Source: Daphnia carinata (Eukaryota; Arthropoda; Branchiopoda; Diplostraca; Daphniidae). Taken from it: a stretch of 64,000 bases of DNA. Under the pieces are notes generated by a model. That model saw only the letters and a list, made by a program, of their open reading frames with translations, searched no databases and was not told the origin of the DNA. Location of the stretch: positions 9,274,449 through 9,338,448 of the forward strand of contig NC_081335.1 in NCBI RefSeq assembly GCF_022539665.2, in the 5' to 3' direction. Below are positions 24,111 through 61,572 of the stretch, in pieces. The stretch's first letter is position 1. Each line of letters starts with the position of its first letter. Both the position numbers and the translations under genes were made by a program.

Positions 24111-24447
24111 TTGACGGTTTTTTTTTTTTTTGAAGTTTTTCGCTTTCAATTCACTTCCTCGGATGGAACAGCGAATTGTGTGAATGTGAGTTCGATTTGA
24201 AATGTAGAATGTTTGAATTTGCGGCCATCGGGCGCTTCGTGCCCTCGGCCGCGTTTTCAATTGCTATTGTGGATAGTACCGTGCTTCACTTTACATTTAC
24301 GTGAATTTGCAGCCATCGGGCGCTTCGCGCCCTCGGCCGCGTTTGCAATTAGACACCTCAATATTCTTTTATCGATTTTCATCCGAAATTTGCACCCAAG
24401 CTACTCCCTAGGTTACGTACAAGAATTTATTTGTGTTTTATTGGGGT
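24111..24447 (-). other. U5 downstream spacer with twin GC hairpins
   Basis: Part of the small-RNA repeat unit in - orientation (same as 39,294-39,672 and 59,940-60,274). It starts at a T-run (24,118-24,131). Two copies of a perfect hairpin, gggcgcttcgcgccc or its variant, within gcggccatcgggcgcttcg..., lie about 80-85 bp apart (about 24,220-24,250 and 24,307-24,340). Confidence 0.75.
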
Positions 24448-24570
24448 GCCCAGTCTAAAGACCAGGCAATTCAAAAATAAGGTCATAGACTCATATGCTT
24501 CCACCCACGGAAATCTTTAGTAAAAGGCGAAAGATTTATCCGTTTATTGAGTGGGAGCCAGAGTGAATAT
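24448..24570 (-). ncRNA. U5: U5 snRNA
   Basis: Core RNA of the U5 snRNP, which aligns exon ends during splicing. Reading - strand: 5' end near atattcactctgg, the invariant loop I gccttttac within aaatctttcgccttttactaaagattt, the Sm site attttt, and a 3' stem around gcctggtctttagactgggc. The length of about 120 nt is normal. It sits in the unit between U4 (upstream) and the hairpin spacer. The 5' stem differs from the other two copies (ggctcccactcaataaac), so function is uncertain. Confidence 0.85.
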
Positions 24571-25035
24571 CAACTGAAAGTAGTTGGTATTTATTCATTT
24601 CACAACTTCAAACCACTTTGGTAAAGTAACAATGGTAAACCCAAAAAATTCAACCATAAAGCAACTGCTGGTTTCTGTTAGATTTGAGACAGTGAGTAAA
24701 ACAGACGATGCTGTGTAAAGCTCATGTAAACATCATTTTTTCGTTAGATTGTGCACTAAATTAATTCTGGTTAGATGAAACATAAACGAAGTCTAGGGCA
24801 AACGAAATCGGTAAGCTGAATTGGGTAAGAAAACGAAGGACAAGTCTTCTGCTAGTTCTTAAACCTTTGTATTGAACTCTTTCGCTTAGTTGAACAAAGT
24901 GCGATTCGTTCAGTAATTCTACAAGTTTTTCGGCCTTCGATATCCATGGGAACGAGTAACTAATCGCTTGCTAAATGCTAGAACCTAGCAGACAATGCCC
25001 ATCACTAACGGAAAACTATGTTAACGTTCATTAAG
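24571..25035 (-). other. U4-U5 spacer
   Basis: Unit spacer, closely matched at 38,703-39,170, 53,199-53,595 and 60,399-60,867. It should contain the U5 promoter. No ORF; proximal sequence elements could not be assigned by eye. Confidence 0.6.
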
Positions 25036-25184
25036 GGAATAGCCCTCTGAGGAGCTATCAAAAATTGCCGACGACGAAGATTATTTCACTCCATCGTGGC
25101 GGGGTATTGGTTAAAGTTTTCAACTAGCAATAATCACATCTCGGTAGACCCTCATTGATTATGATATTGCCACTGCGCAAAGCT
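25036..25184 (-). ncRNA. U4: U4 snRNA
   Basis: Partner of U6 in the tri-snRNP. On the - strand it starts agctttgcgcagtggcaata, the conserved U6-pairing region and 5' stem-loop. It continues with gaaaactttaaccaatacccc, the central stem, the Sm site caatttttg and a terminal stem-loop tagctcctcagagggcta. About 149 nt, near the usual 140-145. The 3' loop differs from the other copies but remains base-paired. Confidence 0.9.
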
Positions 25185-25586
25185 AACCACTACATGAGAG
25201 GGCTCTACTACTTGAACCTTTCTCTCGCCAATTCTGCACGGACGTTGATATCAAGAAAACCAAGAGAGGTGCTGCTTTTCATTGAAATCTAACAGTTCGC
25301 TGCCCTCATTTTTACATTCACATACCTACAAAGATAATAGTTCACTTTACAAATATTCCACCTATGACCACACCACGCCATGGACTGGTAAAATTCATTT
25401 AAAGTGTGCATATTACGGTGCATTTCGCCAAATCAAATGAACGTGCAGGAATTGATTCAATTTGGAGTACAATTCCACTGAACCCGTCCCCGTTAACTTG
25501 ACAATAAAATCGATAAAATTCACATTAATACCGATCGAAACATTTCCAATTACTATGAAATAGTGTTTTACCTTCAAACTTCAGAA
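25185..25586 (-). other. tRNA-His to U4 spacer
   Basis: Unit spacer that should include the U4 promoter, conserved at 38,163-38,553, 52,648-53,049 and 61,016-61,416. No ORF of note. Confidence 0.6.
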
Positions 25587-25670
25587 TGCCGTGACCAGGA
25601 TTCGAACCTGGGTTACTACGGATTATCGTTTCCCCACAACGTAGGGTCCTAACCACTAGACGATCACGGC
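25587..25670 (-). tRNA. trnH(gtg): tRNA-His (GTG) with putative 12-nt intron
   Basis: The - strand gives acceptor gccgtga paired with tcacggc, D arm gtctagtggttaggac, anticodon stem ctacg/cgtag, loop beginning ttgtgg (anticodon gtg) and T arm ccagg..cctgg with ttcgaat. Between loop position 37 and 38 there are 12 extra nt (ggaaacgataat), exactly where eukaryotic tRNA introns sit. Removing them restores a 7-nt loop. tRNA-His in animals usually lacks an intron, so this is unusual. All arms pair well. Confidence 0.85.
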
Positions 25671-25782
25671 CAAATTCAAATTATTTGGCATCTGTAAAAT
25701 GCTCCACACGATCAAGTTTATGGTTCATCAACAAATTGTATTGGTGGAAACAAAAAAATTACTGAATGAAAGAAAAAGCAAT

Positions 25783-25817
25783 GCCAACAGCATCCCGTAT
25801 TCCCAAGCGGTCACCCA
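25783..25817 (-). rRNA. 5S: 5S rRNA, 3' fragment (about 35 nt)
   Basis: Reverse complement reads atgggtgaccgcttgggaat then acgggatgctgttggc, the 3' third of 5S rRNA including part of box C. It directly abuts the A-tail of the Tx1-type LINE at 25,818, so the LINE ends inside a 5S gene at about nt 82. The 5' part of the gene is not found on the other side of the LINE. Confidence 0.9.
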
Positions 25818-26016
25818 TTTTTTTTTTTTTTTTGTAAAATAACCTTTTATTCACAATTAATTTTCATGGCAATACAGCAATTTACAACAAAACAGGATGA
25901 AATACAAATAGAACAAAAACAAAACAAAAAATAAACAAAACAATGTCGGGTTAGGAATCTTAAAAACAAACAAAAAAAAAAAACAAACAAAAAAAGGGTT
26001 CTTGGATGCAGACGAT

Positions 26017-29000
26017 TTAAGGGAGCAGAGATAAATAAACAAAATTTGGCAATGCCGGGTTAGCATTCTTAATAAACAAACAAAAACAAACAAATGCAAA
26101 GAAAATTTGAGGTAGGCTAATTACAAAAAAAACAAAAATAAACAAATGTAAACAATTGGGAACATCGAAATCCATAGAATAACAACAAAACAACAATATA
26201 AACATAATAACATAATAACGAAAAAGGAAAGTCAAGGTTTTTTCCGGGAGAGCATTAAGGGTTTTCCATAAGCTCTCTACTTCTTCTTGACGAGGAGTGC
26301 GGTGGTGAAGTCTTGATTTCCAGGTGATGAAGATGTAAGCAGCCAGAAGAGTAAATGTTAGCCGGAGATTACCTATTGGCCCAAAATGGCCACGAATCAA
26401 ATCTTCGTTTGACGACCTGCAGCCCATTTGACGCATAGTTCCCTCCAACCAGCTCCAAACGATGAGGCGTGCAGGACACTGGAACGTCAGATGCTCATCG
26501 GTTTCTGGATGTTGAAGGCAGATAGGGCATGTAGCATCCTTGGTGGGATCTAACCGATGGCATCTGGTCCTGGTAGGGAGAAGTCGCTGGTTGAAGAGGA
26601 ACATGGTCTCTCGGATGTTGCTTGGCAGGGCTGCAGTCTCCTTCCAGATTCGTGGCCAATCCAGGTGAGGCCTTAGGATCTCCAGCTTTCCCTGAGTGAT
26701 TACCTCCAGGATCCAATGGTTATATGTTTTCCTGTGAACCATTGGATTCCCCTGCACCAGGATGGAAGCGGCGAACAGTTGTTTAATCTGATGCAGGGGT
26801 TCCTGAAGGTAGTTGGGCCTCTTCATGACTGCTACAGGTGCGGTGTTGTTCTTGTAGATGGGAAGTAAGGTGCGGAGAGGGAAGGACATCCAATAACGAA
26901 GTAGAGAGCTTTCTGGACTACTGGGGCCTACAAGGATTCTATACGTGGGACAGAGGAAAAGTGAACGGTAAAAGAGGTGTGTGTTGACCATTCCCAGTCC
27001 CCCTTGGCTCACAGAACGATATATTACAGTTTTGTTCGGCCTTTCTACTTTTCCCATCCATAGGAATTTCATAACAGCCTTTAAAATCTGGTCAGACATA
27101 TTTTGATTACATGGTAATACCTGTGCAATAAACACAGTTCCGGAGAGAGCCTTCGACTTGAGAAAAATTACTCTCTGGTAGAGATTGAAACGTCGACAGG
27201 CATTCTCTCGCAGGATACCATTTAGAGAGCCGAATGCATCACTCCAAACCCTATTAGCTGTCTCAACTATGGAATGGGAGAACTTAATTCCTAAGAGGGA
27301 CAATGTTGGTGCTGATACAAGCCACTCAAGAGGCCAAGTGGACCTAGAGCTCCAATTCCCAAGTCCAAGGGCTTTCGTTTTCTCTTTATTCATCCTTGCC
27401 TTTGTCCACTGACAGAACAAGTCAATGACTTGTCCTGCCCTGGTAAAATCTTCGTCACAAGAAATGAAAATGGTGACGTCATCAACAAAGGCTCTGACAG
27501 TGAGTTTTTCATTAAATAATGATATGCCCTTGAGAACATGAGATAAACGCACTAGCAAAGGCTCAATGTATAGTACAAAAAGATGGACAGATAGGGGGCA
27601 TCCCTGGCGAATCGATTGAATGTCAGAAATCACCCCAGCCACCTCCGATCCGTTGAGGATTGACATTCCTGTTACAGAGTACATCGTCTGCAACCAACGG
27701 ACGAAAGTGGTGGGATAGCCCATGACATCCAGAATTCTCCAGAGGACTTCCCTGTTAACCAGGTCGTAGGCCTTTTCAAAGTCGACTCCAACAATGGCAG
27801 CGCCCATACCCCGAATCGGAAAGTTGGAAGAGTCATGGCATCCCCGGTCATCAACGTATTGAATGACATCTCTGTAAAGTACTAAATTATCGAAAATCAA
27901 TCTACCAGGTACCCCACCTTTTTGGTGAGGCCCTATGGTAGATGACAGTGTCTGCTTCAAACGTCTCGCTAAGACAGATGCCATGACTTTGTAGTCACAG
28001 TTCAAGAGAGAAATTGGCCGAAAATTAGAAACCCCGCAAAGTCCAGACGACTTGGGTATTAGCCTAATCGCCGCTTGTCCCTGCGAAGACGTCAGAGTTT
28101 CCCTTTCCAGGATATGATTAAACATAGCCAAGAAATGGGGTGCGATCTCGTCCCAATATTCTACGTAAAACTCGTAAGGAATGCCATCGGTGCCAGGGGA
28201 CTTGTTTGATTTCATGGCTGTCAGGGCAGATCGAATCTCAAAAAGGGAAATTGGTGCTGTCAGGTTTGGGTTTGGTTTCAAGCAATCTCTTACTCCCTCT
28301 AAAAAATCATTCCCTGCCAGTATGTCAGGAGAAGGTTGGTTTTTAAAAATTTTAGTAAAATGGGAAACAATTTGCGGAAATGTCCTCTTTGGTCGATAAG
28401 CAAGTGCCATTTTGGGCAATGATCTTATCAATGCGACATTTGCGGTAGTTAATTCTAGCTCTATTAACATGGAAGATATTAGCTTCCTCGACTTCTTCGC
28501 CCTCAAAGCAGCGGGAACGAATCCCATACCCTTTGAGTGTGCTCTCCTCCCAAGACTTTGAGAATTTCCTCAACTGGTGAAAGGCAACCCAATCAAAGGT
28601 ATCTGCTTCGGCCATCTCCTGAATGCAAGTCTGGTAGAAAAACTTGGTTTCTCTAACCATTCGAGCTCTTTGCCTAGAATAATCTACCGAAATGCGCTTG
28701 ATACCCGGTTTCAGGACACTCTCCCACCAATTTGCTACATTGCTTTCCCTAAGAGGATGATTGGCAGATTCCCGAATAAAGTTAATGACATATTTCTGAA
28801 AACCTTCTTCTGACAGTATGGAAGTATTTAACTTCCACAACCCAGCAGGAGATCTAGTACGATGCGGGAGATCGAGATTGCAAGTAAAAGTAGATTGTAC
28901 TGACTGATGATCACTAATCGATAAAGATTGCAAACAAATATTTAAAAATTTGTCTGCAAAGGATCGACTAGCATATATCCTATCAAGCCTAGAAGAACCG

Positions 29001-29575
29001 GTAGGGTAGTGAAAGGTATGACCAGGTTCGTTATAATTTAGCTTTTTCCAGATGTCTACTAGATCAAGACCAGTAACCATCTCTTTCAAAGCATAGCTGA
29101 CGACATTAGGTGAGATAGGGAGAGACTGGGTTGTTGCCTTATCTTGGATGTCGTCAACGCAGTTAAAATCGCCTATCAACACGAAGGGCAGTCGAGTAGT
29201 AAGTGTGTAGGCAGGGACGGTTTGTCGAAAGAAATTGTTTCTCTCAGTCTTAACGTGACTACCTGACGGGGCATAGATGTTAATGAACGTGAAACATTTC
29301 ACGTCAATAGAAATTAGCCTTCCGTCAGGTTCTAGCAGTAAACGAGAATAGTTCAGACCATGTCTAATAAGAATGGCTGTTCCATTTTTGTTGGGACCGA
29401 CATTTGCCAACAAATGGTAGCGGCTTTCAATAATTGGGCAAGTATGAAATGCTACCTCTTGAAGTCCCACAATATCTAAGTTTCCGTCCCTGCAAAAGTT
29501 AAAAAGAATTTGACGCCGCTCGACTGACTTAATTCCTCCGATGTTGATAGATGCGATTTTTAAGTTTGTAGTCAT
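26017..29575 (-). pseudogene. LINE copy A ORF2: AP-endonuclease and reverse transcriptase
   Basis: The endonuclease part (29,575-28,380) has LDIVGLQEVAFH, FINIYAPSG, PFVLIGDFNCVDD, SRLDRIYASRS and SISDHQSVQ, all signature AP-endonuclease blocks. RT (28,380-26,017) shows NKSPGTDGIPYEFY, NFRPISLLNCDYKVMASVLA, VGVDFEKAYDLVNRE, SIRQGCPLSVHLFVLY and the catalytic AFVDDVTIF. A C-terminal zinc knuckle CPICLQHPETDEHLTFQC follows. Compared with copy B a 2-nt deletion near 28,380 shifts the frame, so the protein is split; otherwise the gene looks young. The extreme C-terminus runs into an oligo-T-derived tail. Confidence 0.9.
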
Positions 29576-30621
29576 TTGGTGGGTTTCTTGGGTTGGGTAA
29601 CGGGTAAGGTCGGTTTAGGGTTCTGGTTGGGTAAGGTGGGTTTAAATCTTTTGTTTCGGTTTGCAGGTGGGACTTTAACGTGGTCTGGTGTTTTGTCGGT
29701 TTCCATGGTCTCAATGTCCCCCATGTCGGGTTCGATCGAGTCCATGGAAACTATCATAGGTTCAGAGGTGCCGGGTTGGGTCTCGGGTATTATGGTTTGG
29801 AGTGGAATGATCTTTGGTAGGGGATTGTCGGTGGGTTGAACTAGTGGGGCTGGAGAGGATGGGGTTTCAAGGTGGGGAGCCCCTTCTGAGAGTGGGTCTT
29901 GCAACCCACACTCGAGAAGGGCTTTGGAAACTATGGGGTCTTCAACTAAAGGAATAGTGACGGGGATTACGGTAATTGTCTTTGTCTTTTTGGTGGCTTT
30001 TTCTAATGGTTTTTGGGCAATGGTAGGTTCCTTGTTTCGTCTCAAAGTTGGGCAGTTGTAACTAAAATGGGTTTCTTCGTCACACAGTCGGCAAGTAGGT
30101 TTCTGTCCATCATACTTAACCGTGGCACGATAACTGCCAATAGTTAAGTATGATGGAATATTTTTAGTTAATGTCATTCGTGCAATCATCCAAGTGGCAA
30201 GGACAGGGTATAAAACTTCGTCCTCTACCACTCGATAGCGTTCCCACCGAGCTTCTATTACTGTTCCAAATTCTTTTAGACGGGTTTGGACTACTCCCAA
30301 ATCTAGATTCTGTGGGATTCCTGCAATCCGAACAAATTTCTCCTGAATATTACTATCCCTGATAACTACTGAAACTTCTTTCCCCTCCAATTCTGTCCTG
30401 ACGATGCCACTGTGTTGGGACAAAAAGTTTGAGGTGTATGCCTCTGACGTAAACGTAAGCCTAGCAACCTGATTTCTCGTATCTAGCACAGCAACTAGGC
30501 CTAAGAGATCCTGCGGCTCAACTTTCAAACTACGTACGAAGCCATGCACCGCACGCATACTCAATCTCGGGCTTTGAAACCCGAAATCCACATCTACGCT
30601 ATTGAGCCACTTGGCAGCCAT
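29572..30621 (-). CDS. LINE copy A ORF1: RRM-like/zinc-knuckle RNA-binding protein
   Basis: 349 codons, intact. The central region has the Tx1/L1-type ORF1 layout: an RRM-like core (KFVRIAGIPQNLDLGVVQTR; RLKEFGTVIEARWERY), then NIPSYLTIGSYRATVKYDGQ and a CCHC knuckle CRLCDEETHFSYNC (near residue 185). The C-terminal third is Pro/Thr-rich with KKPTK at the end. It should coat the element RNA. Nearly identical over its full length to 57,183-58,232, which confirms the start ATG. Confidence 0.9.
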   Translation of the reverse strand: MAAKWLNSVDVDFGFQSPRLSMRAVHGFVRSLKVEPQDLLGLVAVLDTRNQVARLTFTSEAYTSNFLSQHSGIVRTELEGKEVSVVIRDSNIQEKFVRIAGIPQNLDLGVVQTRLKEFGTVIEARWERYRVVEDEVLYPVLATWMIARMTLTKNIPSYLTIGSYRATVKYDGQKPTCRLCDEETHFSYNCPTLRRNKEPTIAQKPLEKATKKTKTITVIPVTIPLVEDPIVSKALLECGLQDPLSEGAPHLETPSSPAPLVQPTDNPLPKIIPLQTIIPETQPGTSEPMIVSMDSIEPDMGDIETMETDKTPDHVKVPPANRNKRFKPTLPNQNPKPTLPVTQPKKPTK

Positions 30622-31138
30622 TGTCCCTCAGACAATGAAAAACTAAGTGGCCAAAGTAGAGGGGAAGATCCCCACACACGAAACGAGACACAAAATAAGT
30701 AAAAAGGGACACGCGAAAAATAACGACAAAAAATACTTTTAAACACAGCATCAGAAATAAATGAAAGTGCGGTTACATTAACTTTTACTAGAACAAAATA
30801 ATTTACAGTTTACAGATTAAATGAAGTTGTTAATGTGGGGGCCTAACAGTGACATACGTGTGGGGAATATGAAAAACGAAAAGGGGGTTGACGGCTGGAT
30901 TGGTTACCGGAAGGCCGACGTCAATTGACGCCGCGCAGTTTACGCCAAACCACACCTTCTCGCCGGCTGCCGACGTAAGCGATTACCCAGCCGTCAAGAA
31001 TTGAGAGCAGAGGAAAATGTTTGGAAGGAAGTGGGCCAAGATAACTTGAAAAGGTTTCAGGCAATCCGCAACACCACTTGGTCGAAAAATCAATCAATCT
31101 TAAATACCGGGGTTCATTTGAACCCGGTATTTATATAC
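30622..31138 (-). promoter_or_regulatory. LINE copy A 5' UTR, shared with Utopia-type elements
   Basis: On the - strand it starts with a hairpin accgggttcaaatgaacccc that resembles U2 snRNA stem-loop II, then gattgatttttcgaccaagt. The next 250-300 bp (ttgacggctgggtaatcgct; gcgtaaactgcgcggcgtca; catattccccacacg) are clearly homologous to the 5' UTR of the Utopia-type elements at 33,180-33,470 and 55,150-55,460. After gtaaactgtaaat the two families diverge. This should be the element's promoter region. Confidence 0.8.
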
Positions 31139-32958
31139 CTACTTACCTGACTCTGAAACAGACAATTTAGAATCGGGTGAGGGATCGATCCAAAAGCATT
31201 GGAGAGGTCCAACCAGGCAATCACCATCTCCCTCTTTGACTGTTTCGCCTGTTCGATAACAGTGTGAAGGAGATGTGTGTGTTCCTGGATGCCCCTGACA
31301 CCTGGAAGAAACCCTTTTGGCTCTGGTGACATCCATCCTAGTTTCGTCGCCGTGGCCATTATTCTCGAGGAGAGTATTCCTGAGAAGATCTTGTACATGG
31401 TTGGCAGAAGAGATATTGGCCGGAAGTTCCCATACTCTGACGAGTCGCCTTTCTTGTATATGGGGACTGTCTTCGATGTTTTCCAACAGGATGGAACCCC
31501 ATAAGTCCATACAGAGCGGTAGATGACAGCTAAGAGGTGGCCGCTCGCATCCAGAGCACGTAGGTGTCTGTATTCCAGGCCATCTCCTCCAGGCGCTGTG
31601 TTGCAAGCTTTACCGAGTTTGAGCTTGATTTCCTCTGGACTAGGGGGCGAGGAAAGAATTTCGAGTTCCTCTTGAGTCGGGTTTTGCCATTTGCATTCAT
31701 CGAAGTGAGTCTTGGCGAAGTTGATCTGTTCAGTTGGTGGTGGTTTTTGCGAGTACGTTGATTTGAGGAATGCGGCAGCCGAATCCTTGGTTCCCGTGTA
31801 GCCAATGGTTTGCTCCTCTAATATCTTTCTGACGGCTTTGCGAGGGTAAAGCGAGTAGAGACGTTGCAGTTTGCCCTTTTTTGCTGCTTCCTTTTTTCCT
31901 GAGCGCCTGATTTTCTGTTGTTGTCGGTTTTGATTACGCTTACTTCTTGTTCTCTCTGTTGAAGCTCTTGGTCTTCTCGGAGCTGGAATCGTGTCTTCTG
32001 GATTCGTTGCCAGTCTCAGCCACTCCGTTGTGCATTCGTTGAGAAGGGAATCAAGACCCTCTAAAGTGGTGCACAATTCTATCTTCGATGCCCACAACCC
32101 CCTAAACTCGTCTTCTGTTCCCACTATGTCGACGGTGGCTGGTGAGTTCACAAGTTGGCTCGTTGATGATAAAGGGGAAGAGAAGGAGGTGTTTGTACTA
32201 GAGTTAGGGGTTAAAGCAGGGGAACTAGAGGGTGTTGCGTTCGGATTGGGTGTTTGGACGCGCAATTCTGGTGGGGTATCCAGATTGGGTTCTTGACTAT
32301 GGACGTGAGGTGATGGGTTGGCGAGGTGAGCAAGGACGGGTGACTCTGTTACGTTTGGTGAATGGGCAGTTGGAAATGGGGTGCTAGAGGCTGTGGGTGA
32401 GGTGGGGGTGGTTGGTTGTTGGGAACTATGGATTTTAAAGTACTCTCTCATGGCATGACCGTGTAGTATGACGTTGCACGCTCTGCATTTCCATTTCCTT
32501 TTAGTGGACAAACCGTGTTCGCGCGCTACGTGGTGTTCGATAGATTGCGCTGCCACTGTTCCCCGGGCCGTTGTAGACCAACGGCAAAGTGGACATCTAC
32601 AGTTTCCACAAGGATAGGGAAGGATGAGATCCTCCCCTGCAATTTCTGATTGCTCTATGGAAATGCTTTCATCGCTACTACTATCTACGCTACATGCTTC
32701 GTCGCACACCGCGTGGTGTCTTTTGGCTCTGACTCGTTCTTCACAAATATGATTGCACGATTGGCAATAAAAGTTAGTGATGACGGTCAGACCATGCTTT
32801 GATTTTAAGTGATCGACGGCATTTTTAATATGGGTCTTTGAACCATATCTTCCACTTGGGCAGAGAGAGCACTTTAGAATGGAAGGTACAGGAAAGGGAA
32901 GCTTGAGAAAACCATCTACGACGTTGTAGAAAAACAACTCTGTTGACGACTCAGTCAT
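31139..32958 (-). pseudogene. Utopia-type ORF: zinc fingers, DNA-binding region, partial RT
   Basis: Open from ATG 32,958. The N-terminus has four C2H2-like fingers (CSLCPSGRYGSK...H; CQSCNHICEERVRAKRHH; CPLCRWSTTARG...HHVAREH; CRACNVILHGHAMREYFKIH), which should recognise target DNA. A Ser/Thr/Pro-rich linker and a basic region (RTRSKRNQNRQQQKIRRSG) follow. The RT begins with NTAPGGDGLEYRHLRAL, then NFRPISLLPTMYKIFSGIL, FLPGVRGIQEHTHLLHTVIE and WLDLSNAFGSIPH before truncation. The YxDD box and the restriction-like endonuclease are absent here. The last about 8 codons to 31,114 come from the adjoining LINE. Confidence 0.85.
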
Positions 32959-33504
32959 TATGGTCGTAACATTGTTATTTTTTGACAGTTTTTGTAAGCG
33001 AGTGAGACAAAAGTTATTTGGTTGAATTTACGGTAAGGACAATTTGGAGTTTCAAAACAGACACAAAATTATTCTTTAAAGGTATTCAAAAGTAAGTTCA
33101 AGTGATAAATCTACATTTACTATTACTTTTACAAGTACAAATTTATACAGTTTACTCTAGAGCCAATTTGTGAACTTGTTAGTTTGGGGGCCTAACCGTG
33201 ACGCACGTGAGGGGAATATGAAAAACGAGATGGGAGCTGACGGCCGGATTGGATACCGGAAGACCGACGTCAATTGACGCCGCGTAGTTTACGCCAAACC
33301 ACACCTTCTCGCCAGCTGCCGACGTAAGCGATTACCCAGCTGTCAAGAATTGAGAGAAGAGGAAATGTTAGTGAGGAAGTAGGCCAAGATTGCCCGAAAA
33401 GGTTTCAGACAATCAGCAGCACCACTTGGTCGAAAATTAATCAGTCTATGATACCCGGAGTTCAGTTGAACCCGTATCAGATATTACGCTGACGATTAAT
33501 TAAG
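31139..33504 (-). mobile_element. Utopia/NeSL-type LINE, 5' part (copy A)
   Basis: R2/NeSL-type element with N-terminal zinc fingers and RT, attached at its 5' end to a U2 snRNA fragment. Utopia elements of the NeSL lineage are known to target U2 genes, and the layout here agrees. It includes a 5' UTR of about 515 bp (32,959-33,474) and 30 nt of repeated U2 sequence (33,475-33,504). It is cut off inside the RT palm at about 31,139, where the 5' UTR of LINE copy A begins. The C-terminal half and endonuclease are missing from this copy. Confidence 0.8.
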
Positions 33505-33573
33505 CGTATCAGATATTAAGCTGATAAGAACAGATACTACACTTTGATATTAGCCAAAAGGCCGAGAAGCGAT
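33505..33573 (-). ncRNA. U2: U2 snRNA, 5' fragment (69 nt) at a Utopia 5' junction
   Basis: - strand reads atcgcttctcggccttttgg through the branch-point recognition sequence gtagta to ctgatacg. It then joins a second, imperfect copy of the last 20 nt (cagcgtaatatctgatacgg) that leads into the Utopia 5' UTR. The 3' two thirds of U2 are replaced by the element. Upstream flank matches that of the U2 gene at 45,640. Confidence 0.9.
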
Positions 33574-34245
33574 AACTGAGATTCAAGTTACTGGGTATTA
33601 TATGCTATGCTGTTCTCGAAAATCTGACTGATGTACAAAAAAAGCAAACCCCTATCCAAAAACAATGAAACTCATCAAGAAAACAGGTTGTTGCTAGAGC
33701 ACCACCTGGCACTGCTAAAAGCCAATACAACTCATAAGTTTTTATCTTCTATTTTGATAGGAATGCTATATTAGGATGAGTCGTTCAAATATTAAGTTAT
33801 TTGGGAAGCTGTTGAATGCAAGCACCCTGAATTTAAGTCGATGAACTCCACCTAGTAGAGAGTACTGCAGACTTTAAACTGCCTATTAAACAGACAGAGG
33901 AAGGTGTTAGTTAGAAACTTGGTAAAACGTTTTGTACGTAACTCAAATCCACGGTAGACGAAACGCAGCAATATTTACAACTAAATTAAAGTTACACAGA
34001 CAGAAAACCTAACAGCATTAAACAATGTTACATGAACCCAATAATGGACGAAACCCATCTAAATACTATGCCCCCAAATGTGTAAAATTCTCATTAAAAG
34101 TGCCCAAGGTTTCATTACTGAAATCTAAACATGGGTGCATTAGCAATTTCGACATCGATTATGATGTAATAGAGTTCGACGGGTTTACGTATGCCAGTAA
34201 ATTCATTTCTTTTTGGGTTGTTTAAATACCGCTCTGAAAACGCTA
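33574..34245 (-). promoter_or_regulatory. U2 upstream region (promoter-containing spacer)
   Basis: Reverse-complement match to 44,961-45,639, the spacer between U3 and U2. It should carry the U2 promoter. Small ORFs here (e.g. 34,025-34,225) recur as open or broken frames in other copies and are not conserved as proteins. Confidence 0.7.
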
Positions 34246-34326
34246 ATTTCCTTCCAGTGTACCACAAGGGAACATCGGAAACGGTCCTCAATAGCTACGA
34301 GTAGGAACCACAGAAGTAGTTACAAC
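34246..34326 (-). ncRNA. U3: U3 snoRNA, 3' fragment
   Basis: Reverse complement of the last 80 nt of the U3 copies at 44,761 and 54,538 (gtaactacttctgtggttcc ... ccgatgttcccttgtggtac). It breaks at 34,326, where a Utopia-type C-terminal fragment begins. Confidence 0.7.
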
Positions 34327-35097: not shown

Positions 35098-35150
35098 ATC
35101 TGTTCTTATCAGCTTAATATCTGATACGGGTTCAAATGGACCCCAGTATT
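35098..35150 (+). ncRNA. U2: U2 snRNA internal fragment between two elements
   Basis: atctgttcttatcagcttaa, atatctgatacgggttcaaa and tggaccccagtattta: U2 nt about 39-90 including stem-loop II. On the left it is the 3' target flank of Utopia copy B; on the right it merges with the 5' UTR of LINE copy B. Confidence 0.85.
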
Positions 35151-39797: not shown

Positions 39798-39809
39798 TCC
39801 AGCGAAAGG

Positions 39810-48728: not shown

Positions 48729-49038
48729 TGCAAAAACCATGTATGGAAATTGTAGAGGAGATGGAGAGTAATAGAAAGGAATACAATTTTTGTCAGTCTA
48801 CTCATGAAGAACAAGAATTACAAAGAACGAACCAGAAGCGACAAAAGAAAGTGAGGCGATATCAGATAAAACTCAATTTGTAGGACTACTTACAGGGGGA
48901 ATAGAGGAACCTCAAAATTATACCAAAAACCAGTTAGACACAAACAAAGGAAATGCAATGGAAGAAGAAGAGCCAGAATTCTTAGAGCCAAACCTTACCC
49001 CTTTTTTATAGTAAAAAACCCTGTATTTTATTAAACAT

Positions 49039-52000: not shown

Positions 52001-52344
52001 TAAAATGTGACCAATGTGAAGAGGAAGAAAATTTATTACATTTATTTCAATGTAAAATTACTCAGCCAGCAGTCAAACTAATACAGAGGCGCATCAGTAA
52101 TATTTATGAGAAAACGCTTTATCCAAATATTAAACAACTTTTTCTTTTAGATTTTCCAAACACACTGAGGAAAAAGAAAAATTATGCAACATTTTTAGCA
52201 GTAAATCTAAGTCTTATAGTCTGGAAAAAAAGAAAGAAAGCAAATTTTATGAATATTTTTGTAACTTCCCTAGCAAACGAGGAAAAAATAATAAAAGAAT
52301 GCGAGGACTACAAAAAATGGTTTTTAATTAAGTCACAGCAATAA
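49039..52344 (+). pseudogene. 5S-LINE ORF2: AP-endonuclease, RT, zinc knuckle
   Basis: Endonuclease blocks: LALQETNIDE, VVNIYVPTQNE, LIILGDFNSIID, SRIDRIYVQ and FSDHQAVML. RT blocks: NKSPGIDGLPVEFYRKI, NWRPITLLCSDYKILAKIL, LSLDFEKAYDMVDRT, GVRQGCPLAMFLYIIFIEP and AFVDDVSIFI. The C-terminus has CDQCEEEENLLHLFQC. Disruptions: TAA at 50,032, a frameshift near 50,320, TAG at 50,618 and a frameshift near 51,360-51,390. Only a few lesions over 3.3 kb, so all domains are still readable. Confidence 0.9.
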
Positions 52345-52377
52345 AAAAAAAAGTCAAGCTACGTCGGAAAAAAAAAC

Positions 52378-52446
52378 AGTTAAGCTACGTCGGGTCTCGT
52401 TAGTACCTGGATGGGTGACCGTTTGGGAATACGAGATGCTGTTGGC
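52378..52446 (+). rRNA. 5S: 5S rRNA, 3' part of the split gene
   Basis: agttaagctacgtcgggtct, cgttagtacctggatgggtg, accgtttgggaatacgagat, gctgttggc: 5S from box A to the 3' end. With 47,106-47,152 it totals about 117 nt, the expected length. A T-run occurs a few bases downstream (gctttttc), fitting Pol III termination. Confidence 0.93.
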
Positions 52447-52558
52447 ATTGCTTTTTCTTTCATTCAGTTAATTTTTTGTTTCCACCAATACAATTTGTTG
52501 ATGAACCCTAAACTTGATCGTGTGGAGGATTTTACAGATGCCAAATAATTTGAATTTG

Positions 52559-52647
52559 GCCGTGATCGTCTAGTGGTTAGGACCCTACGTTGTGGGGACT
52601 GATAACGCAAATCCATAGTAACACAGGTTCGAATCCTGGTCACGGCA
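52559..52647 (+). tRNA. trnH(gtg): tRNA-His (GTG), degenerate copy with 17-nt putative intron
   Basis: Acceptor gccgtga/tcacggc, D arm gtctagtggttaggac, loop ttgtgg. The insert after position 37 is 17 nt (ggactgataacgcaaat). The anticodon stem has a mismatch (ctacg/catag) and the T stem begins acagg instead of ccagg. Probably a decaying copy; boxes A and B are kept. Confidence 0.75.
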
Positions 52648-53049: not shown

Positions 53050-53198
53050 AGCTTTGCGCAGTGGCAATATCATAATCAATGAGGGTTTACCGAGATGTGA
53101 TTATTGCTAGTTGAAAACTTTAACCAATACCCCGCCACGAAGGAGTGAAATAATCTTCGTCGTCGGCAATTTTTGTTAGCTCCTTCAGGAGCAGATTC
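53050..53198 (+). ncRNA. U4: U4 snRNA
   Basis: Nearly identical to 38,554-38,702, with gctccttcaggagc as terminal hairpin and gggtttacc in the first region. All conserved blocks present. Confidence 0.92.
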
Positions 53199-53969
53199 CC
53201 TTAATGAACGTTAACATAGTTTTCCGTTAGTGATGGGCATTGTCTGCTAGGTTCTAGCATTTAGCAAGCGATTAGTTACTCGTTCCCATGGATATCGAAG
53301 GCCGAAAAACTTGTAGAATTACTGAACGAATCGCATTTTGTTCAACTGAGCGAAAGAGTTCAATACAAAGGTTTAAGAACTAGCAGAAGACTTGTCCTTC
53401 GTTTTCTTACCCAATTCAGCTTATCGATTTCGTTTGCCCTAGACTTCGTTTATGTTTCATCTAACCAGAATTAATTTAGTGCACAATCTAACGAAAAAAT
53501 GATGTTCACATGAGCTTTACACAGCATCGTCTGTTTTACTCACTGTTTCAAATCTAACAGAAACCAGCAGTTGCTTTATGGCTGAATTTTTTGGGCAAAT
53601 TCACGTAAATGTAAAGTGAAGCACGGTACTATACACAATAGCAATTGAAAACGCGGCCGAGGGCGCGAAGCGCTTGATGGCCGCAAATTCAAACATTCTA
53701 CATTTCAAATCGAACTCACATTCACACAATTCGCTGTTCCATCCGAAGAAGTGAATTGAAAGCGAAAAACTTCAAAAAAAAACAAAAAAACAAAAAAACT
53801 TCAAACGCCATTCAATATCTAGTATTCAGATTATTATTCCGCATGAGCTTTGCACATATATAACACTTTTCAAAAGGGCGGGGGTCACTGCCGTTGTAGT
53901 ATTTCACATCTGAAGTTGAAAGAAACACATAGAAATAACAATTTTCCTAATCGAAAAAAAGGAAGGAAA
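53199..53969 (+). other. U4-SRP spacer with U5 deleted (unit D)
   Basis: Follows the U4-U5 spacer to 53,595 (gctgaattttttggg), then jumps straight into the U5-distal spacer (caaattcacgtaaatg). The U5 gene and the first of the twin GC hairpins are missing. It contains the intact empty site for the DIRS insertion at 53,815-53,840. Confidence 0.75.
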
Positions 53970-54235
53970 ATGTGTCGCACATTCACGGGCGCGATCCTCC
54001 TACTGCCCGACACGGGAACTTTTGGCTGCTAAGTTTCCCTCCTGGCCAGTTTCGCTCCTCCTTAGCTAACCTGCACCCATCAAATTCCTCCGATGGGTCC
54101 ATGTTGATGACGAGCTTAGTGCGGACGCTCGATCAACATGCACGATCACGAAGTAGGGCTCCTCGTCTCAAGTCATCCACACTACCAAGCCTCCCAGAAG
54201 CAGGATTACAGATGCGTGCCACACATCCAGCTGGA
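53970..54235 (-). ncRNA. SRP RNA: SRP RNA, 3'-truncated copy
   Basis: Matches 44,160-44,458 closely from the 5' end through gcgcccgtgaatgt. About 36 nt, including the 3' strand that closes the Alu-domain stem and the T5 terminator, are deleted (gaaggaaaatgtgtcgcaca in place of the intact end). It is unlikely to fold or terminate properly, so probably a pseudogene. Confidence 0.85.
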
Positions 54236-54537: not shown

Positions 54538-54740
54538 AAGATCATACTTCACAGGATCATTTCTGTAGTATATCTTGACGTGTTTCCCACCAGAAACATT
54601 CCTCCATTCAACCCGCGATGACGAGTAATGACGGTGGCTTCTGAGAGTGAAACAGGTTTCCTGTGTAACTACTTCTGTGGTTCCTGCTCGTAGCTATTGA
54701 GGACCGTTTCCGATGTTCCCTTGTGGTACACTGGAAGGAA
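54538..54740 (+). ncRNA. U3: U3 snoRNA (second copy)
   Basis: aagatcatacttcacaggat at the 5' end, gatgacga and ctgagagtgaaacagg as in copy one; a few substitutions (e.g. aatgacggtgg, tttcctgtgtaac). May be functional. Confidence 0.8.
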
Positions 54741-55108
54741 ACTAGCGTTTTCAGAGCGGTATTTAAACAACCCAAAAAGAAATGAATTTACTGGCATACG
54801 TAAACCCGTCGAACTCCATTACATCATAATCGATGTCGAAATTGCTAATGCACCCATGTTAAGATTTCAGTAATGAAACCTTGGGCACTTTTAATGAGAA
54901 TTTTACACATTCGGGGGCATAGTATTTAGATGGGTGTCGTCCATTATTGGATTCATGTAACATTGTTTAATGCGGGTTCTGTCTGTGTAACTTTAATTTA
55001 GTTGTAAATATTGCCGCGTTTCGTCTACCGTGGATTTGAGCTACGTAGAAAACGTTTCCAAGTTTCTAACTAACACCTTCCTCTGTCTGTTTAATATAAA
55101 ATCATAAA
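54741..55108 (+). promoter_or_regulatory. Partial U3-U2 spacer
   Basis: Copy of 44,961-45,300; it breaks after cctctgtctgtttaata, before the U2 start, and joins a short A-rich piece ending cataaa that resembles the Utopia 3' end. The U2 5' end of this unit is therefore missing. Confidence 0.65.
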
Positions 55109-58232: not shown

Positions 58233-59020
58233 CTACAAAGTTAAAAATCGCTTCTATCAACATCGGAGGAATTAAGTCAGTCGAGCGGCGTCAAATTCTT
58301 TTTAACTTTTGCAGGGACGGAAACTTAGATATTGTGGGACTTCAAGAGGTAGCATTTCATACTTGCCCAATTATTGAAAGCCGCTACCACTTGTTGGCAA
58401 ATGTCGGTCCCAACAAAAATGGAACAGCCATTCTTATTAGACATGGTCTGGAATATTCTCGTTTGCAGTTAGAACCAGACGGAAGGCTTATTTCTATTGA
58501 CGTGAAATGTTTCACGTTCATTAATATCTATGCCCCGTCAGGTAGTCACGTTAAAACTGAGAGAAACAATTTCTTTCGTCAAACCGTCCCTGCTTACACT
58601 CTTACTACTCGACTGCCCTTCGTGTTGATAGGCGATTTTAACTGCGTTGACGACATCCAAGATAAGGCAACAACCCAGTCTCTCCCTATCTCACCTAATG
58701 TCGTCAGCTATGCTTTGAAAGAGATGGTTACTGGTCTTGATCTAGTAGACATCTGGAAAAAGCTAAATTATAACGAACCTGGTCATACCTTTCACTTCTC
58801 TGCCGGTTCTTCTAGACTTGATATGATATATGCTAGTCGATCCTTTGCAGACAATATTTTAAATATTTGTTTGCAATCTTTATCGATTAGCGATCATCAG
58901 TCAGTAGAATCTAACTTTACCTGCAATCTCGATCTCCCGCGTTGTACTAGATCTCCTGCTGGGTTGTAGAAGTTAAATACTTCCATATTGTCAGAAGAAG
59001 GTTTTCAGAAATATGTCACT
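58229..59020 (+). pseudogene. LINE copy C ORF2, endonuclease part only
   Basis: Starts in the ATGA overlap with ORF1. AP-endonuclease blocks LQEVAFHTCP, FINIYAPSG, VLIGDFNCVDD and SISDHQSVE are present. RLDMIYAS has Met where copies A has Arg. A TAG at 58,967-58,969 replaces the Trp of the conserved GLW motif, and the element breaks soon after. Confidence 0.85.
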
Positions 59021-59069
59021 AACTTTATTCTTCTAACACTTGGTCAAATATCAATCAGGCTATATATCT

Positions 59070-59154
59070 GGGGTCCATTTGAACCCGTACCAGATATTAA
59101 GCTGATAAGAACAGATACTACACTTTTATCTTAGCCAAAAGGCCGAGAAGCGAT
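59070..59154 (-). ncRNA. U2: U2 snRNA, 5' fragment (- strand)
   Basis: - strand: atcgcttctcggccttttgg, ctaagataaaagtgtagtat, ctgttcttatcagcttaata, then tctggtacgggttcaaatgg and acccc. It then passes into element 5' UTR sequence (gattgatatttgaccaagtg at 59,033-59,052). It keeps the canonical ctaagat, unlike the other copies (ctaatat). Confidence 0.88.
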
Positions 59155-59746: not shown

Positions 59747-59884
59747 TGGGTTCAGGTTAGCTAAGGAGGAGCGAAACGGGCCAGGAGGGAAACTTAGCAG
59801 CCAAAAGTTCCCGTGTCGGGCAGTAGTAGGATCGCGCCCGTGAATGTGCGACATGGATTAGCCTCGGCGAAACAGTCAAACCTC
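59747..59884 (+). ncRNA. SRP RNA: SRP RNA, 3' fragment (+ strand)
   Basis: caggttagctaaggaggagc, gtgtcgggcagtagtaggat, cgcgcccgtgaatgtgcgac, gcctcggcgaaacagtcaaa: the 3' 135 nt of SRP RNA followed by ctctttcattttcc. The 5' half is replaced by U2 upstream sequence. Confidence 0.88.
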
Positions 59885-60274
59885 TTTCATTTTCCTTCCT
59901 TTTTTTTCGATTAGGAAAACTGTTATTTCTATGTGTTTTTTTTTTTTTTTTTTTTTTGAAGTTTTTCGCTTTCAATTCACTTCTTCGGGTGGAACAGCGA
60001 ATTGTGTGAATGTGAGTTCGATTTGAAATGTAGAATGTTTGAATTTGCAGCCATCGGGCGCTTCGCTCCCTCGGCCGCGTTTTCAATTACTATTGTGGAT
60101 AGTACCGTGCTTCACTTTACATTTACGTGAACTTGCGGCCATCGGGCGCTTCGCGCCCTCGGCCCCGTTTGCAATTAGACACCTCAATATTCTTTTATCC
60201 ATTTTCATCCGAAATTTGCACCCAAGCTACTCCCTAGGTTACGTACAAGAATTTATTTGTGTTTTATTGGGGTG
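59885..60274 (-). other. U5-SRP spacer with T-run and twin GC hairpins (unit E)
   Basis: Reverse of 39,294-39,660. T-run at 59,938-59,957; hairpins gggcgcttcgctccc (60,056-60,070, arm partly broken) and gggcgcttcgcgccc (60,144-60,158). Confidence 0.75.
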
Positions 60275-60398
60275 CCCAGTCTAAAGACCAGGCGATCGAA
60301 AAATAAGTCATATAGACTCATCAGTGCTCCTAACCACGGAAATCTTTAGTAAAAGGCGAAAGATTTATCCGGGTATTGATTAGAAACCAGAGTGAATA
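60275..60398 (-). ncRNA. U5: U5 snRNA
   Basis: - strand: atattcactctggtttctaa, tcaatacccggataaatctt, tcgccttttactaaagattt, Sm site attttt and 3' stem gcctggtctttagactgggc. Very close to 39,171-39,293. Confidence 0.9.
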
Positions 60399-60867
60399 TC
60401 AACTGAAAGTAGTTGGTATTTATTCATTTCACAACTTCAAACCACTTTGGTAAAGTAACAATGGTAAACCCGAAAAATTCAGCCATAAAGCAACTGCTGG
60501 TTTCTGTTAGATTTGGAACAGTGAGTAAAACAGACAGATGCTGTGTAAAGCTCATGTAAACATCATTTTTTCGTTAGATTGTGCACTAAATTAATTCTGG
60601 TTAGATGAAACATAAACGAAGTCTAGGGCAAACGAAATGGATAAGCTGAATTGGGTAAGAAAACGAAGGACAAGTCTTCTGCTAGTTCTTAAACCTTTGT
60701 ATTGAACTCTTTCGCTTAGTTGAACAAAGTGCGATTCGTTCAGTAATTCTACAAGTTTTTCGGCCTTCGATATCCATGGGAACGAGTAACTAATCGCTTG
60801 CTAAATGCTAGAACCTAGCAGACAATGCCCATCACTAACGGAAAACTATGTTAACGTTCATTAAGGG
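60399..60867 (-). other. U4-U5 spacer (unit E)
   Basis: Reverse of 38,703-39,170. No other feature. Confidence 0.6.
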
Positions 60868-61015
60868 AATCTGCTCCTGATGGAGCTAACAAAAATTGCC
60901 GACGACGAAGATTATTTCACTCCTTCGTGGCGGGGTATTGGTTAAAGTTTTCAACTAGCAATAATCACATCTCGGTAAACCCTCATTGATTATGATATTG
61001 CCACTGCGCAAAGCT
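60868..61015 (-). ncRNA. U4: U4 snRNA
   Basis: - strand: agctttgcgcagtggcaata, gaaaactttaaccaatacccc, caatttttg and terminal hairpin gctccatcaggagc. All conserved blocks present. Confidence 0.92.
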
Positions 61016-61416
61016 AAATTGTACATGAGAGGGCTCTACTACTTGAACCTTTCTCTCGCCAATTCTGCACGGACGTTGATATCAAGAAAACCAAGAGAGG
61101 TGCTGCTTTTCATTGAAATCTAACAGTTCGCTGCCCTCATTTTTACATTCGCATACCTACAAAGATAATAGTTCACTTTACAAATATTCCACCTATGACC
61201 ACACCACGCCATGGACTGGTAAAATTCATTTAAAGTGTGCATATTACGGTGCATTTCGCCAAATCAAATGAACGTGCAGGAATTGATTCAATTTGGAGTA
61301 CAATTCCACTGAACCCGTCCCCGTTAACTTGACAATAAAATCGATAAAATTCACATTAATACCGATCGAAACATTTCCAATTACTATGAAATAGTGTTTT
61401 ACCTTCAAACACTAAT
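61016..61416 (-). other. tRNA-His to U4 spacer (unit E)
   Basis: Reverse of 52,648-53,049. No other feature. Confidence 0.65.
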
Positions 61417-61501
61417 TGCCGTGACCAGGATTCGAACCTGGGTTACTACGGAATTATCGTTTCCCCACAACGTAGGGTCCTAACCACTAGACGATCACGG
61501 C
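61417..61501 (-). tRNA. trnH(gtg): tRNA-His (GTG) with putative 13-nt intron
   Basis: Same cloverleaf as 25,587-25,670: ctacg/cgtag anticodon stem, loop ttgtgg, 13-nt insert (ggaaacgataatt) after position 37, intact T arm. Differs from the first copy by one extra T in the insert. Confidence 0.85.
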
Positions 61502-61518
61502 CAATTTCAAATTATTTA

Positions 61519-61572
61519 TCTAGCAATAATCACACCTCGGGAAACCCTCATTGGTTATGATATTGCCACTGC
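61519..61572 (-). ncRNA. U4: U4 snRNA fragment cut by a hAT element
   Basis: - strand: gcagtggcaatatcataacc, aatgagggtttcccgaggtg, tgattattgctag, i.e. U4 nt about 9-62. Its first 8 nt are expected beyond the hAT element, outside the window. At 61,518 it joins the sequence upstream of tRNA-His without the normal spacer. Confidence 0.85.

Follow-up and report, generated by a model that had tools for sequence, protein, structure and literature searches.

Eight small-RNA genes of Daphnia carinata are linked in a single unit that is repeated head to tail. COX1 places the genome near Daphnia; Brachionus, considered as a candidate host, was discarded on this basis. Rfam and BLAST searches gave the order 5S, tRNA-His, U4, U5, SRP RNA (reverse), U3, U2 and U1 in each unit, and the 5S-to-5S spacing of uninterrupted copies gave a length of 4,733-4,745 bp. 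An initial annotation had deduced this order, with the strands, and a unit of about 4.7 kb from the window (the whole stretch of 64,000 nucleotides analysed, from contig NC_081335.1, here C5); both hold in uninterrupted head-to-tail copies that lie outside the window on the same contig. The intact array is at C5:8.84-8.94 Mb, a stretch that contains a run of 100 N, about 0.34 Mb from the window; six uninterrupted units were read in it, three of them consecutive (L009-L016; predicted order at C5:8.86-8.94 Mb). Each of these units contains 5S together with the other families, eight in all, and every family reaches at least its Rfam gathering score, which rules out chance or annotation error as the source of the unit. 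When L011:409-5141 was used as the reference unit for BLAST, the five other uninterrupted units were 99.1-99.5% identical to it and array pieces longer than 1 kb 98.6-99.5%. Interrupted array units are broken in 5S or U2, several with insertions there. The unit recurs in a second block (C5:5.95-6.00 Mb). Near C5 7.2 Mb, a decayed unit retains the U1-5S-tRNA order, with its decayed 5S at the position predicted from the gene order, indicating that the linkage is old. U6 is absent from the unit, and when one unit was scanned with Rfam at permissive settings, the spacers yielded no further gene beyond a weak SCARNA7 hit (E 0.09), which fell short of the gathering score.

The unit is a complex new form of 5S-linked repeat. 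The view in the initial annotation that 5S is known to be linked with single snRNAs was too narrow, since units with several partners have been published, but an eight-gene unit was indeed not found among them; our selective literature survey on linkage found no 5S-linked unit that also holds U3, U4, SRP RNA and tRNA. In Solea senegalensis, 5S is reported to be linked to U1, U2 and U5 together (Manchado et al. 2006, cited in PMC4696792, PMC3544641), thus to several snRNAs as in Daphnia, although by its title without U4, U3, SRP RNA or tRNA. As described in PMC10161547, Diplonema papillatum has an SL RNA-5S-U2 tandem repeat, whose three genes per unit are called exceptional; like that of Daphnia it alternates small-RNA genes including 5S and U2, but it belongs to a protist, has three genes and includes a spliced leader. 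Among crustaceans, Asellus aquaticus has 5S joined to U1, and in Artemia and Asellus 5S occurs with histone genes, again within another multigene repeat but apparently with one partner family per unit (PMC3215682). Oysters have a 5S-U2 repeat and razor shells 5S-U1 units, tandem like that of Daphnia but, by the titles cited in PMC3464664 and PMC3215682, with a single snRNA partner. The Daphnia unit goes far beyond the one to three partners found described in the literature, and brings together in one repeat RNAs that act in splicing and rRNA processing, in ribosome structure and decoding, and in protein export.

ARAGORN with default settings called the tRNA tRNA-Pro(ggg). Once introns were permitted, three of four copies read as tRNA-His(GTG), interrupted at 37/38 by an intron of 12 or 17 nt, and the Pro call was rejected, in agreement with the initial annotation; the fourth carries T35G and reads Pro(ggg). 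The GGG anticodon is present in 2 of 18 aligned copies. The tRNA-His of the unit has a 12-nt intron and no TTTT within 50 nt downstream, and variation in main-array copies falls within the intron, with a single change in the anticodon as the exception. A separate, much larger 5S array with a repeat of about 465 bp lies on C10. No other Rfam gene was found in the stretches of it that were scanned, and a 5S-only origin was rejected for this reason. Between the unit 5S and the C10 5S, seven pairs are changed, comprising four double compensatory changes, two single changes and one broken pair.

A sampler run at width 18 revealed a promoter-like (PSE-like) motif about 60 bp upstream of U1, U2, U5 and U3 and a weaker one at U4; width 12 gave no consistent position. 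In a leave-one-family-out scan of 15 of the 16 sampled promoters (U5 C10b, with its sampler site at -72, was left out), using motif instances originally picked by the sampler, the best site in -65 to -50 ranked first in 10 promoters and second in three, among 195-283 upstream positions per promoter. Scores near -60 were negative for 5S, His and SRP. The U4 of the unit has a higher-scoring site at -259, and the expected site ranked only fifth for U5 on C4 and U6 on C9. The sampled motif scored 10.2 bits versus 8.4-9.2 in shuffles, only a modest excess, and restarts and steps were fewer in the shuffle control; the score is therefore weak alone, and we relied on the positions instead. Each of the eight genes most likely has a promoter of its own: U1, U2, U4, U5 and U3 would have an external PSE-like promoter of Pol II type, and 5S, tRNA-His and SRP RNA would be of Pol III type. 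The unit, with promoter-like motifs and intact predicted structures, is probably working. We consider it likely that this daphniid multigene tandem array supplies eight house-keeping RNAs, with expression predicted from sequence, and that the window is a retrotransposon-broken outlier of it. Tandem repetition would give dosage; the linkage may have arisen by chance insertion and been retained by co-amplification rather than joint regulation.

All U1 (21/21) and U4 (30/30) matches returned for the genome are on C5 (42 and 41 candidates scored, respectively), and only a few C5 singles were found as sources beyond the unit blocks. Dispersed copies exist for 5S (the C10 array), SRP RNA (C6, C8), U2, U5, U3 and tRNA-His. 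Since some outscore the array copies in Rfam (SRP RNA, 256 vs 225 bits; U2, 185 vs 176), the array is not necessarily the chief source of those RNAs. The confinement of the returned U1 and U4 matches to C5, the order preserved in the old relic and the presence of U1, U2, U4 and U5 (which we take to be the four major Sm-class snRNAs) without U6 would fit selected co-regulation, in which joint copy number or shared chromatin balances cooperating RNAs (the major Sm-class snRNAs, U3, 5S and SRP RNA). We regard this as unlikely, given that a PSE-like site occurs at each snRNA gene and the predicted polymerase classes are mixed, that U6, which must balance U4, has its two full-length matches outside the unit, that the separate 5S array on C10 is much larger, and that random insertion and co-amplification require no selection. 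The U4/U6 duplex energy (-31.7 vs a shuffle minimum of -40.4) did not discriminate.

Between units, U1 and U4 are about 10 times more variable than the spacers. Across the six uninterrupted units, 15/152 sites segregate in U1, 12/142 in U4 and 20/3203 in the spacer, omitting columns within 6 of a gap and those with fewer than three bases. An earlier count gave 42/3,334 spacer sites, and the observed value was reached in 59 of 4,732 circular shifts; sites were recounted without near-gap columns because several spacer sites were clustered, probably beside gaps. No U2 site segregates in these units, and the excess there is therefore confined to U1 and U4. Differences from the reference unit amount to 52/1,640 compared bases in U1, 46/1,703 in U4, 101/36,704 in the spacer, 1/3,264 in SRP RNA and 3/2,453 in U3 (counted without BLAST pieces shorter than 150 columns, the poly-A stretch at unit 1764-1810 and the reference itself). 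The spacers are homogenised between units (0.3% difference), as in ordinary concerted evolution; its expectation that genes vary no more than spacers holds for SRP RNA and U3 but fails for U1 and U4. Among copies covering at least 55% of the gene, array alleles were common to dispersed genes for 13 of 20 in U1 (0.73 expected) and 6 of 13 in U4 (0.27 expected), while U5 and main-array U2 gave no clear sharing (P 0.07 and 0.03). The pairing test, which omitted copies below 60% and repeated variant sets in array and window, revealed that array U4 variants broke 0 of 28 pairs; pair 62-77 of the U1 model is broken in most U1 variants, and in the block at 5.99 Mb the U2 variants disrupt two pairs.

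Allele sharing points to gene-sized conversion inside a homogenised array. Unequal exchange and conversion would keep the spacers alike, while U1, U4 and U2 genes, and likewise the 5S gene of one interrupted unit, may swap sequence with dispersed paralogs by short gene-limited conversion tracts, so that the array would hold several structurally sound isoforms. That the variation is concentrated in transcribed sequence could instead reflect faster mutation of snRNA genes under heavy transcription, but this is quite unlikely, as SRP RNA and U3 barely vary although heavy transcription is expected of them too, and as 13 of 20 U1 and 6 of 13 U4 array alleles match dispersed genes where fewer than one match was expected for either gene. 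Returning to conversion, co-existing, stage-dependent U1/U2/U4 isoforms are described for Drosophila, mouse, Xenopus and sea urchin (PMC4291461), whereas the Daphnia isoforms, unlike those families as described there, are scattered among near-identical tandem units. It is possible, and we propose it tentatively, that the array works as an isoform exchange, in which gene-sized conversion with dispersed U1, U4 and U2 genes that have promoters of their own keeps loading structurally sound variants into otherwise identical units; a single chromosomal locus would then produce a changing mix of spliceosomal RNA isoforms, possibly used by life stage, in a cyclically asexual animal. As the eight families share one unit, they undergo the same unequal exchange, a natural experiment; with SRP RNA and U3 staying uniform and U1 and U4 diversifying at a distance of a few kb or less, conversion tract length and donor dependence become measurable in one locus.

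In the window, the Rfam check proposed with the initial annotation gave 21 matches over the gathering score: U1 x1, U2 x4, U3 x2, U4 x5 (including one chimeric piece), U5 x3, SRP RNA x2, 5S x1 (truncated) and tRNA x3 (Table 1). The three 5S pieces are all incomplete, and each of the four U2 matches is either broken or disturbed; the window alone is therefore no proof of a working array. It would be a decayed outlier, broken up by retrotransposons sitting in 5S and U2. The previously noted U4-U5 pair (38,554-39,293), the SRP-RNA-to-5S run (44,160-47,152) and the reverse copies (24,448-25,817 and 60,275-61,501) all proved to be unit pieces. The run at 52,378-54,740, read as 5S to U3, keeps the order but has lost U5, whose place thus rests on other copies, and the 5S sequences at 47,106-47,157 and 52,378-52,447 are halves of one gene split by a 5.2-kb retrotransposon. 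Such broken window copies, the insertions in 5S or U2 of several array units and the dispersed, sometimes better-scoring SRP, U2, U5 and U3 genes might suggest that the array is a dead repeat, an amplified satellite of pseudogenes, with the dispersed genes as the functional ones, but this is very improbable, given that outside the unit only a few C5 singles were found for U1 and U4, SRP RNA and U3 are nearly invariant, main-array tRNA variation is intronic bar the one anticodon change, and pairing is kept by most variants with PSE-like sites in place.

Table 1. Unit-derived genes, unit pieces and inserted elements in the window
Feature	Position	Strand	Evidence
Unit piece: 5S nt 84-120, tRNA-His, U4, U5	24118..25818	-	BLAST to reference unit 97.5%
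U5 snRNA gene	24447..24566	-	Rfam 78.3 bits; 85% to unit U5
U4 snRNA gene	25043..25184	-	Rfam 116.9 bits
tRNA-His(GTG), 12-nt intron	25587..25670	-	Rfam 54.1 bits; identical to unit tRNA (His by ARAGORN with introns)
5S 3' end, retrotransposon cut at nt 83	25782..25818	-	
Element A, APE-type non-LTR retrotransposon, 3' end at 5S nt 83	26020..30627	-	Exo_endo_phos, RVT_1, zf-RVT; 96.6% to array copy
Element B (U2-targeting retrotransposon), 5' part	31149..33504	-	RVT_1; 97.1% to copy at L010
Unit piece: U3 3' part, spacer, U2 nt 1-69	33505..34324	-	98.4% to reference unit
U2 fragment nt 39-102, adjoins element B 3' end	35098..35161	+	BLAST to unit
Element A, 3' part	35228..38162	+	93-95% to array copies
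Unit piece with U4, U5	38163..39672	+	98.0% to reference unit
U4 snRNA gene	38554..38695	+	Rfam 119.5 bits
U5 snRNA gene	39173..39295	+	Rfam 74.7 bits
DIRS-like insert	39741..43448	+	RVT_1 and Phage_integrase (tyrosine-recombinase) domains
Unit pieces SRP(-), U3, U2, U1 up to 5S	44022..47105	+	BLAST 98.2% and 97.3%
SRP RNA gene	44158..44454	-	Rfam 221.3 bits
U3 snoRNA gene	44761..44983	+	Rfam 124.6 bits
U2 snRNA gene with disturbed 5' end, matching the unit from nt 39	45828..46021	+	Rfam 110.1 bits (array copies: up to 176)
U1 snRNA gene	46662..46825	+	Rfam 145.2 bits; gene body 92.7%, 85 bp upstream = unit exactly
Split 5S gene, 5' half	47106..47157	+	
Element D, APE-type non-LTR retrotransposon inside 5S gene	47158..52377	+	Exo_endo_phos, RVT_1
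Split 5S gene, 3' half	52378..52447	+	Rfam 44.2 bits
tRNA-His, 17-nt intron	52559..52647	+	Rfam; ARAGORN
U4 snRNA gene; U5 deleted downstream, junction 53595	53050..53191	+	Rfam, BLAST
SRP RNA gene	53934..54231	-	Rfam 167.1 bits
U3 snoRNA gene	54538..54760	+	Rfam 114.5 bits
U2 gene, unit match restricted to nt 1-102	58976..59154	-	Rfam 97.8 bits
Unit piece tRNA-His, U4, U5	59936..61517	-	BLAST 98.3% to reference unit
U5 snRNA gene	60273..60395	-	Rfam 82.0 bits
U4 snRNA gene	60874..61015	-	Rfam 120.6 bits
tRNA-His	61417..61501	-	Rfam 54.0 bits
U4 fragment nt 9-72, breakpoint piece	61509..61572	-	BLAST to unit

Element B has the Utopia layout of RT, a C-terminal restriction-like endonuclease and N-terminal zinc fingers (RVT_1 domain; CX3CX7HX4C and PDX12D motifs by pattern search; zinc fingers by eye). 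Utopia elements are U2-targeting RLE retrotransposons, and their arthropod families, as characterised in PMC4640811, produce no target duplication; the insertion of element B lies in U2 and is accompanied by a duplication of 31 bp (U2 nt 39-69). A relative of element D (67%) in the C10 5S array ends at the identical 5S position.

Genome-wide searching, reading and scanning of the tandem copies leave no doubt that an eight-gene unit exists in this assembly. In a search of the 108-Mb genome (106 contigs) in which the best 47 of 3,900 5S candidates were scored, eight of the 11 top-scoring 5S genes fell at C5:8.866-8.920 Mb, on the contig that carries the window at 9,274,449-9,338,448. The main array was read and scanned with Rfam over C5:8,860,001-8,940,000, where 97 matches exceeded the gathering score. 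Six uninterrupted units were found, at array positions 15664, 20409, 25142, 36978 and 41718 and, reversed, at 70538, each comprising 5S, tRNA-His, U4, U5, SRP RNA on the opposite strand, U3, U2 and U1. The first three are directly consecutive. Units other than these six are found interrupted by insertions in 5S or U2. Genes occupy 1,344 of the 4,733 bases of a unit, and are predicted to be very likely functional. In most units seen, the spacer between U5 and SRP has two copies of a palindromic, GC-rich element of 49 bp. At the array's end, at C5:8,936,466, stand 100 consecutive N, either a gap or a withheld stretch, so the array may be longer than what is seen.

The initial annotation had proposed a unit of about 4.7 kb with this gene order from the broken copies in the window, and the uninterrupted units, with 5S spacings of, for example, 4,745 and 4,733 bp, bear it out. 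Rfam placed U1, U2, U3, U4, U5, SRP RNA, 5S and tRNA genes in the window at or near the positions first assigned. The window copies are interrupted, BLAST against the reference unit giving ten pieces longer than 150 bp, some inverted, and a domain search showed that inserts with reverse transcriptase (RT) separate them. The run read from 5S to U3 at 52,378-54,740 does contain unit genes, but Rfam and BLAST showed that U5 is deleted in this 52-55 kb copy; likewise, the pieces at 47,106-47,157 and 52,378-52,447 are 5S sequence, but belong to a single gene that a 5.2-kb element has cut in two.

Smaller linkages have been described: isopods and Artemia in which 5S is joined to U1 or histones (PMC3215682), fish with U2-U5 and U1-U2-U5 (PMC3464664), 5S with U1, U2 and U5 in Solea (cited in PMC4696792 and PMC3544641), and SL-5S-U2 in Diplonema, termed exceptional (PMC10161547). 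The suggestion that such a mixed unit is undescribed agrees with the linkage literature searched, which took in few subscription papers and yielded no eight-gene unit.

The unit's gene families are concentrated on C5. Only the best candidates were scored, so all counts are lower bounds; among the matches listed, C5 held 21 of 21 U1 (20 over the cut-off), 30 of 30 U4, 28 of 31 U2, 22 of 25 U5, 21 of 23 U3, 23 of 26 SRP RNA and 30 of 37 tRNA-His. The 30 U4 matches comprised 15 at C5:8.845-8.935 Mb, four at 5.96-6.00 Mb (spaced about 10.3 kb), five in the window and six elsewhere on C5. Coverage of the 5.95-6.00-Mb block comprised about 10 kb together with segments surrounding individual genes (L018, L026, L033, L066, L067). 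Every one of the 24 hits to a U3-U2 spacer probe was on C5; identity was 96-100% for 23 of them and 78% for the other. Among the SRP RNA matches listed, the two best lie on C6 and C8; they outscore the array copies, with which they share about 78% identity. U6 gave at least four matches, two full-length, with none on C5 among those listed. A second 5S array, of approximately 465-bp units, lies on C10 and two small contigs. Two further clusters, one with flanks unlike the array and one on C4, are tabulated. Contig C92, with COX1 twice 16,664 bp apart, probably represents a mitochondrial genome that was assembled as two head-to-tail copies. Translated with code 5, the C92 COX1 shares 97% identity with the Daphnia magna and D. 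carinata entries and 95% with Moina macrocopa, as in a daphniid-like cladoceran.

Between main-array units (C5:8,860,001-8,940,000), U1 and U4 vary about ten times as much as the spacers. When 14 other array pieces were compared with the reference unit, differences numbered 101 in 36,704 spacer bases (0.28%), 52/1,640 in U1 (3.2%), 46/1,703 in U4 (2.7%), 14/1,353 in U5, 19/2,022 in U2, 7/1,008 in tRNA, 4/1,145 in 5S, 3/2,453 in U3 and 1/3,264 in SRP. Segregating sites among the six uninterrupted units were 15/152 in U1, 12/142 in U4, 2/123 in U5, 0/164 in U2, 2/223 in U3, 0/280 in SRP, 0/120 in 5S, 2/72 in tRNA and 20/3,203 in spacer. The four snRNA genes hold 29 of these 53 sites (38 of 80 with 12 units), a share reached by 41 of 4,732 circular shifts, every one within 100 bp of zero shift. 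The U1/U4 pattern in the main array is the reverse of ordinary concerted evolution; the window shows a weaker contrast, with a drift of 1.6% in its spacers and a difference of 2.9% in genes.

Dispersed U1 (C5:8.604 and 4.164 Mb) and U4 (3.932 Mb) genes resemble the unit in the gene but not in the fetched flanks (48 bp upstream for the 4.164-Mb U1). Thirteen of 20 main-array U1 alleles occur in the two dispersed genes, against 0.73 expected; with other array copies, 18 of 29 are shared, which includes every dispersed allele. Sharing was also found for U4 (6/13 against 0.27 expected), 5S (6/8 against 0.44), U3 (2/2 against 0.19) and U2 over all copies (11/23 against 0.84), was less clear for main-array U2 (2/8), and was not significant for U5 (2/7). 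For the window U1, the 85 bases upstream match the unit exactly, whereas the gene differs by 7.3% and the second base downstream is that of the dispersed genes, not that of the unit. This flank/gene contrast and the shared alleles suggest that conversion limited to the genes, in either direction, is likely. Dispersed relatives of SRP and U3 are only 78-80% identical, and the near-uniformity of these two genes would fit a requirement for similar conversion donors. Use of RNA isoforms from the array would be speculative.

The linkage predates the present array, since a decayed unit near 7.2 Mb keeps the array order. A poor U1 match at C5:7,218,811 (34.8 bits, below the cut-off) and a tRNA-His at C5:7,219,442 have the unit's order and, within 43 bp, its spacing. 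A 5S was predicted between them, and the 151 bases fetched (L069) contained a decayed 5S; immediately before it stand 24 bases of unit spacer, of which 22 are unchanged. The 78% match to the spacer probe lies at 7.275 Mb, about 55 kb beyond.

A motif sampler given 16 regions upstream of unit and dispersed snRNA, U3 and U6 genes placed an 18-bp motif between -56 and -60 in 14 of them. In a leave-one-family-out scan of 15 of these regions (195-283 positions each), the best site in -65 to -50 ranked first in 10, second in three, and fifth for a U5 copy on C4 and a U6 copy on C9; within the unit, it came first for U1, U2, U3 and U5 and, scoring low, second for U4. Near -60 the scores of 5S, tRNA-His and SRP were negative, although each gene had a positive site somewhere else within 300 bp. 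A long T run lies 3' of SRP and six T 3' of 5S; tRNA-His has no TTTT in the 50 bases downstream. We take the polymerase class of each gene from its identity.

Unit and C10 5S differ at seven of 34 pairs (four double compensatory, two one-sided, one broken); these two 5S types are tabulated. Array U4 variants break no pairs and include compensatory changes (e.g., 27-46 and 93-109). U1 variants show compensatory pairs 26-39 and 51-88, with modelled pair 62-77 commonly broken, and U2 variants of the 5.99-Mb block show two double, five single and two broken pair changes. SRP against dispersed copies gave 6-8 double, 19-24 single and 13 broken changes in 120 pairs, gaps being partly responsible. 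Main-array tRNA variation is confined to the intron except for T35G (GTG to GGG), present in two of 18 aligned tRNA-His copies, one in the main array and one at C5:9.237 Mb.

Three kinds of retrotransposon, A, B and D, sit in unit genes. Element B has a single open frame, 1,244 residues long, that encodes RT together with an RLE-type zinc motif and a PD-D motif; on both sides of the element stands a duplicated 31-bp stretch, U2 nt 39-69. It appears related to or near Utopia. U2-targeting Utopia elements are recorded for Daphnia pulex, and the arthropod families are said in that account to produce no target duplication (PMC4640811), unlike element B. Element A encodes an APE endonuclease and RT, with its poly-A end at 5S nt 83. 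In two array copies its 5' end abuts U2 nt 85, so that the 3' half of U2, the U1 gene and the beginning of 5S are absent there; the element could be transcribed from the U2 promoter. Element D, also with APE and RT, lies within 5S near nt 52, and a 67% relative on C10 has its 3' end at the same position. D represents a second APE lineage, with 67% relatives at nt ~52 of C5 and C10 5S genes.

Coordinates of features in the window and in other stretches read from the genome (L numbers)
Feature	Location	Remark
Old decayed copy of the unit (relics of U1 and 5S, with tRNA-His)	C5:7,218,811-7,219,529	array order
Palindromic 49-bp element	L011:1963-2011, 2051-2099	
5S of mixed unit	L011:409-528	several compensatory pair differences from C10 type
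5S of ~465-bp C10 array	L021 repeats	
tRNA-His bodies with GGG (proline) anticodon	C5:8,892,477-8,892,560; L019:5498-5581	distant copies
tRNA-Ile, divergent U1, 5S	L017:3114-5368	one strand, within 2.3 kb; flanks unlike array
Four tRNA-His matches	C4:7,250,125-7,262,590	12.5 kb; weak SRP RNA match adjoins first
Element A copies	L014:12-5308; L015; window 26020-30627	3' end at 5S nt 83
Element B	L010:580-4314	
Element D	window 47158-52377	
Relative of D	L020/L021, 5.8-10.4 kb	C10
Retrotransposon domains, presumably DIRS-like	window 39741-43448	
Retrotransposon domains, presumably BEL/Pao	window 9152-14195	
Retrotransposon domains, presumably Gypsy-like	window 3856-4725	
Frame with ricin-type lectin domain	window 7487-8311	
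Frame with ankyrin repeats	window 19236-20066
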